Assembly: GCF_003268475.1 (NCBI RefSeq)
Contig: NZ_MCIF01000002.1
Coordinates: 3,890,671 to 3,954,670 of the forward strand
Source: Thermogemmatispora tikiterensis
Lineage (GTDB): Bacteria > Chloroflexota > Ktedonobacteria > Ktedonobacterales > Ktedonobacteraceae
Direction: 5' to 3'
DNA: 64,000 nucleotides
Shown: piece after piece, positions 6,118 to 38,201 of the stretch
Position numbering within the stretch: the stretch's first letter is position 1
Layout of the letters: every line of letters begins with the position of its first letter
Notes under the pieces: model-generated
Databases searched by the model: none
Seen by the model: the letters and a program-made list of their open reading frames with translations, nothing else
Told to the model about the DNA's origin: nothing
Translations under genes and position numbers: made by a program

Positions 6118-7233
6118 TTAAGGGAGTTGGGAGGGGGCTGGATAAACTGTCACGCTGGTGATAGCCGCTGTGGCCGCGGGTGACGAGGTGCCATTGCTCA
6201 CAAAGAGCGCGATCATGCCGCTGGTATAGGAGCTATCGGTCACGCTCGCAATCAGGTGGCCGTTCACTCCCAAAACAATGTGGTCGCCCTTAATAATTAC
6301 TGTCACCTCGTTCTGCTGTCCCAGGGGCTTAATGGCCTTATTCGCAAGTATCCCCGACAGGATACGTACCTGGGTATTGCCGTCGAGGCCAGTCACCTCC
6401 TTGGAGATTGCGTACGTGGCGTCGCCGAAGATGTCCACGCGATAATCGTTGGCCAGCTGATCATCGCCGCGCATGTAAATGCCCATACTGTCGTTGCTAT
6501 CGCCGCTCTCCAGGGTCATATCTACCGTAATCTGGAAATCGCTGAACGTTTGTCGTACGGGTAGAGGAGCCACCAGAATACGGTGATTGCGATCGGTCAT
6601 TGTCAGAGCATGGTTAGCGATCGTCTTACTGAAGCCGGGGCCACCAGTGGTATCCCAGCCCTTGCTATTGTTGGCAAAATTATCGCTGAATAGCGGTGTC
6701 ACTGCGGGGTGTGCCTGTATCAGCACGTCGGGCGAAGGGCTGGGACTGGCGCTGGCCGCCACATGGCTGCGACTGGTGGCAGGCTGACTGTAGAGGCTGA
6801 GGATGAGAACCAGCACGCTGCCGACCAGCACCAGCGCGAGTATGCTACCGATGACCACCACGAGCATGGGAAGTCGCTGTCCCGGCGCAGCTGGCTGCCT
6901 GGTCGGCGGGGCCGCAGCGGTCCAGGGCGGGGGAGAAGGGGGGAAAGGGCCTGCCCTTTCGCCAACGTCACTGGAGGAGGTTGTCCAGGGAGGGGGCGAG
7001 GACAGGGTCGCTGCTGACCAGGAGCTGGCGGGCCAGACAGGCTGCTGGTCAGGCTGCTCAGAGACAGAAGCAGCCGTGGGGACCCCGCTGCTCTCTGGTC
7101 TGGGAGAGAGCAGCGAAGCTGCTGATACAGGGGCAGAAGCCACATATGTGCCGCAATTGCTGCAGAAAAGCTCATAAGGCCCGAGGTGCCTGCCACAGAT
7201 GGGGCAGAGACGATCAGGGTTAGCAGTCTCCAT
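6118..7233 (-). CDS. Zinc-ribbon, single-pass membrane protein with extracytoplasmic beta-sandwich (LamG/DUF1080-like) domain
   Basis: The protein has 371 residues. The N-terminus is a classic zinc ribbon (CPIC at 10-13, CSNC at 24-27). A Ser/Pro/Trp-rich linker follows to about 120, then one membrane helix at about 122-149. The C-terminal domain (about 183-365) has the FSDNFANNSKGWD opening and alternating strands seen in concanavalin-like glucanase/LamG or 3-keto-disaccharide hydrolase (DUF1080) folds. No catalytic residues can be assigned. The topology suggests a cytoplasmic zinc ribbon linked to an outside ligand- or glycan-binding domain. The same architecture, with a different outer domain, occurs at 1954-5490. 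Confidence 0.8.
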   Translation of the reverse strand: METANPDRLCPICGRHLGPYELFCSNCGTYVASAPVSAASLLSPRPESSGVPTAASVSEQPDQQPVWPASSWSAATLSSPPPWTTSSSDVGERAGPFPPSPPPWTAAAPPTRQPAAPGQRLPMLVVVIGSILALVLVGSVLVLILSLYSQPATSRSHVAASASPSPSPDVLIQAHPAVTPLFSDNFANNSKGWDTTGGPGFSKTIANHALTMTDRNHRILVAPLPVRQTFSDFQITVDMTLESGDSNDSMGIYMRGDDQLANDYRVDIFGDATYAISKEVTGLDGNTQVRILSGILANKAIKPLGQQNEVTVIIKGDHIVLGVNGHLIASVTDSSYTSGMIALFVSNGTSSPAATAAITSVTVYPAPSQLP

Positions 7234-7519
7234 GAGGGAAAAGCCTTTCTAGCCCGCCGGGGCTGCAAGCAAGGAGCAAGACAACATCACGACAGACAGA
7301 CGGCACCTTCCTCCACCATCGCAGCGGATAGTCCTGCCAGCCGACTCTCTCCCGATTTCGGCCTCGGGCCATCTGGCTAGCGGACGATCGTTGTAGCCGC
7401 ATGACTGACGACTGGTAAAGAGCCGGCCAGCCGGTCAGCCGACCGGCCAGCCACTCCGGTCTGGGCAGACGAGCGGAGCCGGGCAAAGCCCTCTGGTGTA
7501 GCAATAGCGGATCAGGCCC

Positions 7520-19406: not shown

Positions 19407-19813
19407 GCGGTCTGTAGCTCCTTGACGTGTCCCTCCAGCAGGCATGTGGCAAAATGGACAAGACCAAAGCACTGCGATATTTACAGGTAGGTACCAGGGA
19501 GACTCGTAACCAGACTAAGAGACTCTGAGGAAGAGTATAGTGTCTGGAAAAGGATTTGTCCAGGGAATGGCAGGCGCTGTGAACACCTTGGGTTAGCCAG
19601 CTTGAGGCCGGGAGCGGCCAGGCTGCCAGCAAGCCAGGATCATCAGGAATGGGTATGAAAGGCGGAGGAGTGGGGGATCGTACCGGCCCGGTACCGAAAT
19701 GACTAAGGATGCCCGTTTCATTGACAAGAATGGGGGATTTCAGTATACTCTTCGCCACAGGCGAGGAGCCTGTATATTTTGTTTTGGCTTGGGAGCTTGC
19801 CCGAGCAAAGGGA
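19407..19813. other. Intergenic region before the KGG protein gene
   Basis: About 400 bases. Apart from the near-consensus promoter at 19721-19749, I see no gene or clear hairpin here. Confidence 0.5.
19721..19749 (+). promoter_or_regulatory. Near-consensus sigma-70 promoter of the KGG stress-protein gene
   Basis: TTGACA (19721-19726), an exact 17-base spacer, and TATACT (19744-19749). The predicted start near 19756 lies about 58 bases before the ATG at 19814. The promoter strength suggests high basal expression or alternative control. Confidence 0.8.
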
Positions 19814-20164
19814 ATGGTGATGGCTACCAGAGAAGAGGAGAAGCCGGCGCCGATGTCAACGGTCGAGGCCGGTCGTAAAGGGGGGAGTGTTGTCCGCGAC
19901 AAATATGGTGGGGAGTATTATCGCCAGATAGGCAAGAAGGGGGGTACAGCTCTCAAAGAGAAGCGCGGGAGCGAGTACTACCGCCAGATTGCCCAGAAAG
20001 GTGGCCAGGCCAACGTCACGAAGTATGGTCCGGCCCACTTTTCTGAGATGGGGAAGAAGGGTGGCAATGCGACCAAGGCGCGACAAGACCCTGACTTTTA
20101 CAGCCGGATCGGTAAGTTGGGAGGGGCAGCCCGGCGTCGGAAGAAAGCGGAGGCACAGGAATAA
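19814..20164 (+). CDS. KGG-repeat stress-type protein
   Basis: A small hydrophilic protein of 116 residues (114 if the second ATG at 19820 is used, which has the better AAGGGA spacing). It carries five copies of a short repeat around a KGG/LGG core: GRKGGSVV, GKKGGTAL, AQKGGQAN, GKKGGNAT and GKLGGAAR. Copies are about 20 residues apart and alternate with aromatic 'YYRQI/HFSEM/FYSRI' segments. This matches the stress-induced KGG repeat family (GsiB/YciG-like), linked in other bacteria to desiccation, heat or general stress. It ends in a Lys/Arg-rich tail. The biochemical role is unknown. Confidence 0.88.
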   Translation: MVMATREEEKPAPMSTVEAGRKGGSVVRDKYGGEYYRQIGKKGGTALKEKRGSEYYRQIAQKGGQANVTKYGPAHFSEMGKKGGNATKARQDPDFYSRIGKLGGAARRRKKAEAQE

Positions 20165-22063: not shown

Positions 22064-24406
22064 ATGCTACGTGAGGGTACACAGCTAGCTCAGGGTCGCT
22101 ATCGTCTAGTGCGCTCACTAGGCAGCGGAAGCCTGGGCGAGGTCTACCTGGCCGATGATCTCCATATGCGGCGCCGGGTAGCCATCAAAATCATCACCGC
22201 CGAAGCTACGACCTGCGTTGAAGCCAGCGCCGCCTCGCAGGCGAGACGATATATTGAGCGTGAGCTGAAGGCCATTGCCCGGCTAGATCATCCTCACATT
22301 CTGGACCTGTACGACTACGGTGAGGAGTCCTGGCAGCGCTTGCTGCTCCTCTACATGGTCATGCCCTATCGGCCCGAAGGCTCGCTGGCGGGCTGGCTAC
22401 GTCTGCGCTCGCAGTTCGGGCCGTTAAGTCCCCAAGAGGTCTGTGATCTCGTCAGTCAGGCCGCGGATGCTCTGCAGCATGCTCATGATCATCAGATCAT
22501 TCATCGCAATGTCAAACCCTCCAACCTGCTGATACAGCTCCATCCGCGGCAACCGCGGCGCCTGCATCTCTTGCTGGGCGACTTCAGCATTGCTCGTATT
22601 GCCGAGGCCAGCCTGACCACGGGTCAGATTATTCGTGGGACACCGATCTACATGGCGCCCGAGCAATGGGAAGGCCAGCCGACCTGCGCCACTGACCAGT
22701 ACGCCCTGGCAATCATGGCCTATGAAATGCTTGTCGGCCAGCCTCCCTTTCAAGGTGGACCGGGGCCGCTGATGTTCCAGCATCTGCAAAAGGCGCCGCC
22801 GCCACCCAGCGGCCAGAATCCGGCTCTCTCGCCGGCCATTGATCAGGTGCTGCTGCAGGCTCTCGCCAAACGTCCCGAGGAGCGTTTTGGCTCAGTGGCC
22901 GCTTTTGCCAAAGCCCTGGAGCAGGCTGTGACCGGCAATGCCCTGCTGCCAGACTCTGAACAGGCGGAGCAGGAATCTGGCTGGCCGGGAGAGGATGGAC
23001 TGATTGAGGTGCGACTGGCCATTAGCCGGAGCGAAGCGCGGCACGGAACGCGCCGGCGTTTGAACGTGGCGGGCGAAGAAGTCGAGGTAGAGATCGGGCC
23101 GGGCGTGGTCGATGGGCAGACACTGCGGGTCGCCGGCTGGCGCCGTCACGGGGCAGACTGGTCAATGTCGGCGGAGGAAGCCTTGCCGGACCTCTTGCTC
23201 AAGCTTGATGTGGTGCCCGACGAGCTGCTGACCGGCGCGGTGGAGGGTGGCGGCTCTGGGGCGGCTATGCCTGTCACAGTAGCAGCAAGCACTCCGCTGT
23301 CGTCTGGCGCCTTCGAGGTACCGCAGTTACCCTTTCCCCCGCCCTCACCGCTGCTCCAGGGTGAGCCTTGGGTGGACTGGCCGGGCCGAAGCGAGCTGGG
23401 ACAGGGACAGGGAACGACCCTGAGCGGGACCTTCCCCGCGATGACTTCCCCAGCTCCGACGCCAGCTTTCAGTGTCACACAGCCTCATCCTCTATCAGGC
23501 CGCTCGGGGGCAACGGGCGAGTGCCGGGCCACCTTTGAAGCCGTACCAACGCCGGCAGCATCGAGTCCGATGGCGGCGCCTCCTCCGAGGAGCCAGAGCA
23601 CGACCGAACTGCGCCGGCTGGTCCGCCCGCCGCGACGCAGCGCCGCTCAGATTGTGACCGTGCTCCTGGTCCTGGCCCTGCTCTTTGTCAGCAGCGGCCT
23701 CCTGGCCTACTTCCTGATCACCAGTCAGCCTGCTGCCCTACGAGGAGGAAGCCAGAATGAGAGCCCCGCGCAGAGTGTGACCACAGCCAGGGCGCCACAG
23801 GGGCCCGACGGAGAGAGCCGGGCCGAGACACGGGTCAGCGCGGCGCCGACAAGCGCTCTACAAGAAGCCACCGCCACGGCACGCGCTCAACAAGAGGTCA
23901 CCGCTACCGTCCAGGCACAGCAACGTGCCCAGCTTCAGGCTACTGCCGCTGCTCAAGCCCAGGTTCAGGCTCAGCTCGCTGCTACCGCCACAGCCCAGGC
24001 AGCTCAGCCTCTGCTGTTGGCCGATAAAACCAGCCTGCAGGCTCACCCCGGCGCCAGCAGCAGCGACTGCGTCTACACATTGCCGGCGGTTGATAACAGC
24101 GGCTACCCGGGCTGGTCCTGCAACCTGACCCTGAGCAGCCGGGGCGCAGCTCAGCAAAACCTCTCCTGGTCCACGAGCATCGCCGGCCCTGGCGGCAATA
24201 GCAGCCTCTGGCCGGTCCCTGCAGGCGAAGGTGGCCGCAGCGATATCTATCTACTCCCGGCAAGCGGGCAGATTCACCCCCAGGGAGTACAGCAGGTGCG
24301 CGTGATCGTGCGGGATTTCTCTCAGGGAACAGGTTGCCCCAGCAGCTACCTCCTGCGCTTCAGTGGACCGGCGAACTACGTCGATGTGCTCTGGGGTTGC
24401 TCCTAG
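22064..24406 (+). CDS. Membrane Ser/Thr kinase-like protein (probable pseudokinase) with DnaJ C-terminal-like module and extracytoplasmic domain
   Basis: The protein has 780 residues. Residues about 10-280 form a Hanks-type kinase fold: GSGSLGEVYLA loop, VAIK Lys42, an ERELKAIARL helix and MAPEQWEG. However, the catalytic loop reads HRNVKPSN (Asn149 in place of the catalytic Asp) and the DFG motif reads DFS (Asp173, Ser175). Phosphotransfer is therefore doubtful. Residues about 313-391 (IEVRLAISRSEARHGTRR to LLLKLDVVPDELL) resemble the DnaJ C-terminal peptide-binding domain, with VEIGPGVVDGQTLRVAG as the typical core. A membrane helix follows at about 527-556. Then comes an Ala/Gln/Thr-rich spacer and a C-terminal beta domain with four Cys. 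The start at 22064 was chosen because the fold begins there; an upstream ATG at 22004 adds 20 residues. Being a receptor or scaffold is inference. Confidence 0.87.
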   Translation: MLREGTQLAQGRYRLVRSLGSGSLGEVYLADDLHMRRRVAIKIITAEATTCVEASAASQARRYIERELKAIARLDHPHILDLYDYGEESWQRLLLLYMVMPYRPEGSLAGWLRLRSQFGPLSPQEVCDLVSQAADALQHAHDHQIIHRNVKPSNLLIQLHPRQPRRLHLLLGDFSIARIAEASLTTGQIIRGTPIYMAPEQWEGQPTCATDQYALAIMAYEMLVGQPPFQGGPGPLMFQHLQKAPPPPSGQNPALSPAIDQVLLQALAKRPEERFGSVAAFAKALEQAVTGNALLPDSEQAEQESGWPGEDGLIEVRLAISRSEARHGTRRRLNVAGEEVEVEIGPGVVDGQTLRVAGWRRHGADWSMSAEEALPDLLLKLDVVPDELLTGAVEGGGSGAAMPVTVAASTPLSSGAFEVPQLPFPPPSPLLQGEPWVDWPGRSELGQGQGTTLSGTFPAMTSPAPTPAFSVTQPHPLSGRSGATGECRATFEAVPTPAASSPMAAPPPRSQSTTELRRLVRPPRRSAAQIVTVLLVLALLFVSSGLLAYFLITSQPAALRGGSQNESPAQSVTTARAPQGPDGESRAETRVSAAPTSALQEATATARAQQEVTATVQAQQRAQLQATAAAQAQVQAQLAATATAQAAQPLLLADKTSLQAHPGASSSDCVYTLPAVDNSGYPGWSCNLTLSSRGAAQQNLSWSTSIAGPGGNSSLWPVPAGEGGRSDIYLLPASGQIHPQGVQQVRVIVRDFSQGTGCPSSYLLRFSGPANYVDVLWGCS

Positions 24407-24496: not shown

Positions 24497-24553
24497 TTGA
24501 CAATATACGTATACATATATTACCCTTGCCCATATCTGGGCTACATATACGTA
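24497..24553 (+). promoter_or_regulatory. Promoter and operator-like palindromes upstream of the EXLDI gene
   Basis: TTGACA (24497-24502) is followed after 18 bases by TACCCT (24521-24526). The spacer holds the perfect palindrome TATACGTATA (24504-24513), and TATACGTA recurs at 24546-24553, just past the expected transcription start. A dimeric DNA-binding protein, perhaps the EXLDI product itself, could block this promoter; that is inference. Confidence 0.5.
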
Positions 24554-24690
24554 GACATAGACGGATAGCCTGTCTCGCCGAAACCAGGCAGGGGGGCGAG
24601 GCGGGACTGTGTGACAAGGCTGAAGCGGAGCGCTCTTTGCGCCTGGCTGAAGGGCAAAGCGCAGCGAAGCGTGTACAGGAGGTACCGACT

Positions 24691-25212
24691 TTGCCAAATC
24701 GCACCATCTATGTAGCAGAGGCTGATCTGCCAATCTTTGAGAAGGCTCAGCAACTAGCAGGCGGCAACCTTTCGGCTACCATTGCGGCGGCCCTCCGCCG
24801 TTTTGTGGAGCGAGAGGAGGCACGACGCGCAGGTTTTGAGGAAGTGACGGTCAGGGTAGGCAGGATAGCCCACGTCTATAAGCGCTTTTTAGGGCGCCTG
24901 CTGGCCCGCGGTCTGAGTCGCCAGCGAGAGGAGGGCCGCGAAATACTCTACCGCATCTATCAGACGCCTAAAGGCAAGTTTGCTGTCCACCTTCGGGAAG
25001 GGCCGGATTGGAGCGACTGGCGGTATTGGTCACAACAGACCTGGCGGCGTCGTGAGTGGGCCTGCTGGCCCCAGGACTACGACTATCGGCTGGAGATCTA
25101 CGATTCTCTGGAGGAGCTGCGCGCTCATCTACCAGTGGAACTCTATGAGGCAGTCTGTCAGGTCATGAAAGCCGACCAGCAGGAAGACGGCGTGGAGTTT
25201 CTGGATATCTAG
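24691..25212 (+). CDS. EXLDI-type protein with ribbon-helix-helix-like N-terminus
   Basis: The protein has 173 residues, starting at TTG (24691) with an AGGAGG nine bases upstream. Longer in-frame starts lack such a site. The protein ends VEFLDI, matching the C-terminal E-x-L-D-I signature of the EXLDI family known in Actinobacteria and Chloroflexi. The first 50 residues (RTIYVAEADLPIFEKAQ, then GNLSATIAAALRRFVE) have the strand-helix-helix pattern of MetJ/Arc-type DNA-binding domains. The rest is rich in Trp, Tyr and Arg (DWSDWRYWSQQTWRRREW). Palindromes lie just upstream and a drug-type ABC exporter 465 bases downstream, so a local repressor role is plausible but unproven. Confidence 0.8.
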   Translation: MPNRTIYVAEADLPIFEKAQQLAGGNLSATIAAALRRFVEREEARRAGFEEVTVRVGRIAHVYKRFLGRLLARGLSRQREEGREILYRIYQTPKGKFAVHLREGPDWSDWRYWSQQTWRRREWACWPQDYDYRLEIYDSLEELRAHLPVELYEAVCQVMKADQQEDGVEFLDI

Positions 25213-36122: not shown

Positions 36123-38201
36123 TCAGGCTACCTGCCAGACGTGGATCTGGCCGTCGTCGCCGGCGGAGGCCAGGCGCGTGCTGTCGGGCGACCAGGCCAC
36201 GACGTTGACGTCCTCGGGATGCTCGCTATAGGTCAGGAGGTGGTCGCCGCTGGTGGCGTCCCAGACCTGGACGGTCTTGTCTTCGCCGGCGGAGGCCAGG
36301 CGCGCCCCATCGGGTGACCAGGCCAGGGCGGTCACCTCATCGCTGTGATTGGTATAAGTCAGAATGTGATGCCCATTGGTGGCGTCCCAGACCTGGACGG
36401 TCTTATCTTCGCCGGCGGAGGCCAGGCGTGTGCTGTCAGGTGACCAGACCAGGGTAGTCACGCTATCGGAGTGGCCCTGATAGACGAAAATGACCTCCCA
36501 GGAGCTGATGTCATAGATGCGAACGGTCTTATCCAGGCTGGCGGAAGCGATGCGGCTCCCATCGGGTGACCAGGCCACGGCGCTCACCAGGCTCGTATGA
36601 CCGCGCAAAGTCGCCACGCGCTTGCCCGTCATGGCCTCCCAGACGAGAGCCTGCTTGCTCAAACTGGCGGAGACGATCAGGCGACCATCGGGGGACCAGC
36701 TCAAGGAGATCACGGAATCCTGGTGGCCGCGGAAGGTCGTCACGCGGCGTCCACTGGCGGCCTCCCAGACGTGGGCCGTGTGGTCGTTGCTGCCTGAAGC
36801 AATGTAGGTGCCATCGGGCGACCAGGCGGCGGTGCGCACCGGCTCTTGATGGCCGCGGTAAGCGAAGATCTCCCGTCCTGTGGTGGCATCCCAGACCTGG
36901 AGAGTGTGATCGTAGCCGCCAGAGACCACCCGGCGCCCGTCAGGGGACCAGGCCAGAGCAAAGACGCGCTCGTTGTGCCCGCTGTAGGTATAGAGGCGCC
37001 TGCCAGGCATTGGTGTTGACGGAGACACCTCCAGGCGTGGAGTAATAGAAGAAGCGCCTGGCGCTGGCGTCGGCATCGAGATGATCTCGGGCGTGCCTGC
37101 GGCTCCAACGGGAGTCGCTGGCGAAGCGGGGGCGGGCGTCTCTGAGGAGGCCGCCGTCAACGAAGGCAGAGTTTGCGACTGATTAATGAGCTGGCTACTT
37201 GTCTGCATGGCGGCGATGCGCTGCAGCTCCTGCTTAATGGCCGCCATTGAGGCTGGGCGCTGCTGCTCATCGAGGCTCACCATCAGCATAATCAGCTTCT
37301 CCAGCTCGTACTCCAGCGGCTGTGTATACGAATGCATCGCCGTAAAACGGAAGGGGGACTGCGTAGGACTCTGGCCGGTCAGGAGATGGTGCAGGGTGGC
37401 GCCCAGGCTGTAGACATCGGAGCGCGGCGTCGTCTGGGCCTTGCCGTACTGTTCGGGGGCGGCGTAGCCCCACGAGGCGAAGGCACGGGTATCGCGTATC
37501 TGACCTGGCTTGAAGTGGCGCGCGATGCCAAAGTCAATCAGGTAGAGATGGCCCTCGGCGGTGCGCATCACATTGCTCGGCTTCAGATCGCGGAAAATGA
37601 TGGGAGGCTGGCGGCTATGGAGGTAGCTGAGCACCGAGCTGAGCTGAATGCCGATATCCAGCACCTCGGCAATTGGCAGTCCGGGCGGGCCGTTTGGATG
37701 TTCCCGCTGCCAGCGCAGCAGATACTGCTCCAGCGACTCACCTTCGATGAAATCCATCACCAGATACCACTGCCCTTCTTCCGAGAAGTGGTCGTAGATG
37801 CGCGGCAGATTGGGATGCATCAGGTTCGCTAGCAGCAGGGCCTCCTGTTTGAAAGCCGCCGTTGCTTCCGCGATCTCTTCCGGGCCGAGACCGCTCTGGC
37901 TCATCTCTTTGATTGCCACAGTGCGGTCACCAAACTGAGTATCCTGGGCGCGATAGACGGCTCCCATGCCGCCCTTGCCGAGCAGGGCCACGATGCGGTA
38001 GCGCTGCCGCAGCAGATGATTGATCGGAAGCTTGCCGGTGCTGGTGCTCAAATCGGAAGCGGTTTCTCTCTCGTTCCCGGGTGTTGCAGAGAGAGGGCGC
38101 TCTGGCAAGGGCTGCCCACAGTGGAAGCAGAAGCGGGCCTGTGGGCGGTTTGCCTGGCCGCAGCGATCGCAATAGATGGGAGTAGCATCGTCGTTGTACA
38201 T
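36123..38201 (-). CDS. Ser/Thr protein kinase with N-terminal zinc ribbon and C-terminal seven-repeat WD40 propeller
   Basis: The protein has 692 residues. A zinc ribbon (CDRCG, CFHCG) occupies residues 9-30. The Hanks-type kinase (about 66-330) has GKGGMGAVYRA, VAIKEMS, IIFRDLKPSN (catalytic Asp kept; the usual His is Phe), LIDFGIA and AAPEQYG, so it looks active. After a Ser/Thr/Pro linker the last 290 residues contain seven WD40 repeats, each with 'WSPDG...ASAS.D.TV..WDA'. Together they probably form one closed propeller. No membrane helix is present, so it is cytoplasmic. The propeller may bind substrates; that is inference. Confidence 0.94.
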   Translation of the reverse strand: MYNDDATPIYCDRCGQANRPQARFCFHCGQPLPERPLSATPGNERETASDLSTSTGKLPINHLLRQRYRIVALLGKGGMGAVYRAQDTQFGDRTVAIKEMSQSGLGPEEIAEATAAFKQEALLLANLMHPNLPRIYDHFSEEGQWYLVMDFIEGESLEQYLLRWQREHPNGPPGLPIAEVLDIGIQLSSVLSYLHSRQPPIIFRDLKPSNVMRTAEGHLYLIDFGIARHFKPGQIRDTRAFASWGYAAPEQYGKAQTTPRSDVYSLGATLHHLLTGQSPTQSPFRFTAMHSYTQPLEYELEKLIMLMVSLDEQQRPASMAAIKQELQRIAAMQTSSQLINQSQTLPSLTAASSETPAPASPATPVGAAGTPEIISMPTPAPGASSITPRLEVSPSTPMPGRRLYTYSGHNERVFALAWSPDGRRVVSGGYDHTLQVWDATTGREIFAYRGHQEPVRTAAWSPDGTYIASGSNDHTAHVWEAASGRRVTTFRGHQDSVISLSWSPDGRLIVSASLSKQALVWEAMTGKRVATLRGHTSLVSAVAWSPDGSRIASASLDKTVRIYDISSWEVIFVYQGHSDSVTTLVWSPDSTRLASAGEDKTVQVWDATNGHHILTYTNHSDEVTALAWSPDGARLASAGEDKTVQVWDATSGDHLLTYSEHPEDVNVVAWSPDSTRLASAGDDGQIHVWQVA

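Follow-up and report, generated by a model that had tools for sequence, protein, structure and literature searches.

A predicted receptor-like pseudokinase with a DnaJ-type C-terminal domain in Thermogemmatispora tikiterensis

Here we describe a gene of the thermophile Thermogemmatispora tikiterensis whose predicted product joins a Hanks-type kinase domain lacking its catalytic aspartate to a DnaJ C-terminal domain (CTD) and, across the membrane, to a putative ectodomain. The gene encodes 780 amino acids, occupies positions 22064..24406 of the forward strand of the window (the whole 64,000-nucleotide stretch of DNA that was analysed), and has orthologs in conserved gene order in five other Thermogemmatispora genomes. 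Comparison of these sequences indicates that the aspartate is lost in all orthologs and the other nucleotide-site residues are kept, that kinase domain and CTD are both under selection, and that the CTD is homologous to, and predicted to fold like, those of J-proteins. On balance we favour the reading that the protein is a single-pass receptor-like pseudokinase, controlled by its ectodomain, whose output would run through the docking of partners by the CTD, without phosphorylation.

Gene layout and the altered kinase domain

The start codon is the ATG at 22064, which follows a Shine-Dalgarno-like run (GGGGAAGG), and the stop codon lies at 24404-24406; the mechanical open reading frame begins at an earlier in-frame ATG (22004), and relatives start at the 22064 position instead. 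All features lie on the forward strand. The kinase domain (residues about 1-290; 22064..22933) is followed by a DnaJ-like module, a fast-evolving Pro/Ser-rich linker (residues 393-522; 23240..23629), a single membrane helix (residues about 530-553; 23651..23722), a low-complexity Ala/Gln/Thr stalk (residues 556-655; 23729..24028) and an ectodomain (residues 656-780; 24029..24403) with four cysteines (Cys669, 686, 758 and 779), all kept in five species. The basic run RRLVRPPRR on the N-terminal side of the hydrophobic helix would, by the positive-inside rule, place the N-terminus inside the cell. The first-pass annotation had proposed a transmembrane receptor with a membrane helix, a low-complexity spacer and a cysteine-containing outside domain, and this layout is borne out by the hydropathy scan, the single helix with its N-terminus inside, and the conserved cysteines. 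A Pfam search matched the ectodomain to no family, an AlphaFold2 run on it gave a pLDDT of 37, and in one comparison it showed weak similarity to the ectodomain of a relative, L020 (BLASTP E=0.006).

The N-terminal domain is readily recognised as a kinase fold (PF00069, 8.5e-38; 130.7 bits against a cut-off of 31.7, with positions 1-255 of 263 of the profile covered), and its best solved relatives are PknB-type kinases (3e-41). Its motifs read GSGSLG, VAIK (Lys42), alpha-C Glu66, HRN147-149 followed by VKPSN, DFS173-175 and APE. We compared six orthologs in all, drawn from the genome of the window, Thermogemmatispora aurantia, T. carboxidivorans and Thermogemmatispora MAGs; the Gly-loop, the VAIK lysine, the alpha-C glutamate, the catalytic-loop lysine and asparagine, the DFS aspartate and APE are kept in every one. 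Earlier inspection had singled out the retained ATP lysine (Lys42; 22187..22189) and the replacement of the catalytic aspartate by asparagine (HRN; 22502..22510), and the alignment agrees on both points, with codon AAT at position 149 in all six orthologs; most relatives in the wider family carry HQD, HLD or HKD together with DFG. The same inspection had pointed to DFS (22580..22588), in which the metal-binding aspartate is kept and glycine becomes serine. Ser175 is indeed identical in all six, but it is no sign of inactivity, since DFS also occurs in three HQD relatives (within locus L144) and in one HRD kinase of the T. tikiterensis genome. Asn149 is therefore the single lesion.

Bacterial pseudokinases are defined at the sequence level by the loss of at least one of the beta-3 lysine, the HRD aspartate and the DFG aspartate (PMC12599244). 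In this protein the HRD aspartate, the mark of an active Hanks-type kinase, is gone, the beta-3 lysine and the DFG-type aspartate are present, and none of the six genus orthologs has intact HRD and DFG at these positions. Pairwise dN/dS within the genus is lowest in the kinase domain (0.03-0.09), followed by the CTD (0.07-0.09), the linker (about 0.2) and the stalk (0.12-0.57). To judge from these alignments, the protein is a pseudokinase by the usual definition, its aspartate lost in all orthologs under purifying selection. Decay of the gene was considered and is ruled out by the low dN/dS, which identifies the protein, at the level of sequence, as a maintained pseudokinase. In the T. carboxidivorans copy (L034) a frameshift interrupts the linker that joins CTD and membrane helix (about 7148-7359); the stretch is GC-rich, and a sequencing error may account for the shift.

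It seems unlikely that the protein is instead an active or weakly active kinase with an atypical catalytic loop, its CTD serving for substrate docking as presumably in the Asp-containing relatives. Such a kinase would be expected to keep its remaining catalytic residues, as this one does, and to have a kinase domain under very strong constraint; HQD or HLD is retained in most of the fused relatives, and weak activity has been reported for other HRN domains, with very low activity for those of HER3 and JAK2 (as cited in PMC9988210). Against this, the HRD aspartate is replaced in every ortholog, which is enough to class the protein as a pseudokinase in the accepted sense (PMC12599244), and a long branch (0.62-1.0 changes per site) leads up to the radiation of Thermogemmatispora, as would follow from altered constraint. 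The first-pass proposal of scaffolding in place of phosphorylation thus stands in part: with the aspartate lost from all orthologous sequences a non-catalytic role appears likeliest, but full inactivity is uncertain because of the very low activity reported for the HER3 and JAK2 domains, and the architecture as such is compatible with catalysis, since relatives keep an intact aspartate.

A pseudokinase is in itself nothing unusual in this genome. It holds 75 Pkinase matches in 5.97 Mb, a very large kinome for its size, and 13 of the 68 readable catalytic loops of its kinase-like genes lack the aspartate. The second kinase of the window (36126..38201, reverse strand) has at least seven WD40 repeats after its kinase domain and intact FRD and DFG motifs. 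Assignment of the pseudokinase as an anti-phage kinase (PD-T4-6 or MAD6 in PADLOC) was rejected, as the matches span the kinase domain alone and the neighbours examined are not defence genes.

The DnaJ CTD and its distribution

The module behind the kinase (residues about 313-388; 23000..23227) is a predicted cytosolic domain resembling a single DnaJ CTD I. Its own match to DnaJ_C (PF01556) is weak, whether in the whole protein (E=0.023, 15.2 bits; NCBIfam DnaJ model 1.4e-6 at residues 314-368) or as the separate module (20.5 bits, again below the cut-off of 26.6), and it becomes firm through its relatives, profile comparison and structure. The homologous modules of all four relatives tested pass the cut-off (28.1-41.1 bits), as does that of a kinase-less paralog (28.6 bits), and a profile built from nine module sequences finds the solved CTDs of T. 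thermophilus DnaJ2 at 1.8e-19, with CTD I matched best. When aligned with CTDs taken from true DnaJ proteins encoded in the same genomes, the modules follow their pattern, again that of CTD I. An AlphaFold2 model of the module has a pLDDT of 75 (90 or more at 31 of 91 residues), and a Foldseek search with it returned T. thermophilus DnaJ as the top match (E 4.8e-5) and J-proteins as almost all of the top 40, with DnaJ2-client NMR structures and Sis1 among the other matches. The HMM searches and the structure prediction thus uphold the earlier assignment of residues 313-391 to a DnaJ C-terminal fold: the relatives pass DnaJ_C, and the predicted structure resembles J-protein CTDs and not a confidently different fold. 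We conclude from sequence and model together that the module corresponds to one DnaJ CTD I repeat. The protein lacks the second CTD, the J domain and the dimerisation part that Hsp40 proteins have; no Pfam match to a J domain was found in the 780 residues, at whose N-terminus the kinase stands, and this is not a J-domain protein.

The fusion is no isolated accident, for we found 32 kinase-CTD genes in 18 of 29 Ktedonobacteraceae genomes, mostly with the HQD or HLD aspartate intact. No such fusion occurs in the 18 other genomes of the order, and in a sample of 301 genomes from the phylum the strong CTD matches outside Ktedonobacteraceae sit in DnaJ-sized open reading frames. Five kinase-CTD-membrane helix genes stand in tandem in one large Ktedonobacteraceae genome (L144; G009:C1:5906500-5921000), three of them combining DFS with intact HQD. 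The CTD persists where the kinase fold is degraded, as in L146 (HQN, alpha-C glutamate missing) and in L127-L129 (HLG/HMG, Gly loop and activation segment gone). It also persists where the kinase is missing altogether, as in L140 (G000:C2:5395500-5399500) of the T. tikiterensis genome and in about ten other proteins of several genomes that consist of CTD, membrane helix and ectodomain. Throughout, its position is constant, between the membrane helix and either the kinase or the N-terminus. Several of the kinase-less proteins have LamG/3-keto-disaccharide-hydrolase-like ectodomains, and that of L140 matches 3-keto-disaccharide hydrolase (PF06439) at 2.8e-10.

Catalysis is therefore dispensable for this arrangement, and the series of active, dead, degraded and absent kinases on one chassis suggests that the part formed by CTD, membrane helix and ectodomain has a function of its own, most likely to dock peptides or loops of partners on the cytosolic side of the membrane. 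More tentatively, Ktedonobacteraceae may possess a receptor chassis, with a variable ectodomain, a membrane helix and the DnaJ CTD as constant cytosolic signalling element, to which an active, a dead or no kinase is attached. In the best trees the aspartate changes three times (HRN in Thermogemmatispora, HQN in L146 and HLG/HMG in L127-L129), but trees that force the Asp-less groups into a single clade are not rejected (p-AU 0.47 with the kinase only, 0.093 with kinase plus CTD), so that independent losses, which we had considered, are not claimed.

That the CTD fold is a structural spacer or a juxtamembrane oligomerisation part that has lost peptide binding strikes us as improbable. There is a single CTD, its loop is longer and variable in the Thermogemmatispora copies, and such a fold could make homotypic contacts; against this reading, its core positions are conserved in kinase-bearing and kinase-less proteins alike, following the DnaJ CTD I pattern, and its dN/dS is only 0.07-0.09.

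Proposed mode of action

According to the docking reading that we favour, the ectodomain would control the clustering or conformation of the cytosolic half. The kinase fold probably still binds ATP-Mg without efficient phosphate transfer, and could act as an ATP-responsive scaffold. On the cytosolic side of the membrane, the CTD would hold a partner protein by a short hydrophobic segment. The output would be docking itself, with partners gathered, shielded or presented and not phosphorylated; they quite possibly include one of the many active kinases of the genome. In this scheme the signal is presumed to pass from outside to inside. Gene neighbourhood suggests no partner gene for the receptor. 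The conserved neighbours are galU, a gene for an EXLDI protein, an ABC transporter and a histidine kinase. The EXLDI gene (24526..25212, forward strand; TIGR04342, 4.5e-25, with no Pfam match) adjoins the pseudokinase gene in the genus-mates checked. Upstream lies a small gene for a KGG-repeat/LEA_5-like stress protein (19709..20164, forward strand) with 99-100% identity in genus-mates.

The suggestion that the receptor senses misfolded proteins finds no support, because the CTD lies inside the cell, is single and comes with neither a J domain nor a dimerisation domain, the DnaK tails of the genome have no EEVD, and the neighbours examined include no chaperone gene. The missing J domain, the DnaK tails and the neighbours also make it quite improbable that the CTD recruits DnaK (Hsp70) and makes the protein a membrane-bound co-chaperone or stress sensor. 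In class B J-proteins CTD I is able to engage the Hsp70 tail, and the Foldseek matches include the complexes Sis1-Ssa1 (2b26) and Hdj1-Hsp70 (3agz); nevertheless the two DnaK proteins of the genome end in IEGEYKEM and IEGEYREV, which weakens the case for docking of an EEVD tail.

If Ktedonobacteraceae do have a chassis with the CTD as its constant element, peptide capture by a chaperone domain would be a principle of membrane signalling in bacteria. Few bacterial pseudokinases have known jobs. Since one family offers a natural series of active, single-residue dead, degraded and kinase-less forms, experiments can tell apart what catalysis and docking each contribute.

Relation to known systems

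A full-text search with incomplete coverage of the literature returned no paper joining DnaJ and Ktedonobacter kinases in a relevant way, and in the literature searched we found no DnaJ CTD serving, without a J domain, as juxtamembrane docking part of receptors. A review of bacterial pseudokinases from 2025 has no mention of Chloroflexi or of DnaJ (PMC12599244). The search was confined to full-text papers, and automatic annotation may already show such a fusion.

Among known systems, transmembrane Hanks kinases of the PknB/StkP type share the N-terminal cytosolic kinase, the one membrane helix and the C-terminal ectodomain. Unlike them, the window protein has no PASTA repeats and no catalytic aspartate, and carries a DnaJ CTD between kinase and membrane; the PASTA kinase model NF033483 reaches 211.5 bits against a cut-off of 450, over the kinase part only. 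Class B J-proteins of the DnaJ/CbpA type share the CTD I fold and pattern, which also appears in the 319-residue DnaJ of the same genome, but the window protein lacks their J domain, G/F region, CTD II and dimerisation domain and is membrane-anchored. Human PSKH2, too, has HRN as its sole alteration at the catalytic positions and is predicted still to bind nucleotide (PMC9988210), although that protein is eukaryotic and of unrelated architecture.

The ActPs2 pseudokinases likewise have the HRD aspartate replaced by asparagine and a membrane helix C-terminal to the kinase. These are actinobacterial, however, with the beta-3 lysine changed to arginine and DFG mostly deleted (PMC12599244), whereas the window protein keeps the lysine and the DFG-type aspartate; of the three features only the Asp-to-Asn change is shared, and we do not place the protein in this group. 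EssB/YukC, a bacterial pseudokinase that is likewise bound to the membrane and serves as a scaffold (PMC12599244), gives non-catalytic scaffolding at the membrane a bacterial precedent, although all three of its motifs are degraded, it is part of type VII secretion and it has no DnaJ CTD. What is new in the protein described here is the combination of domains, a variation on the bacterial transmembrane pseudokinases already known.
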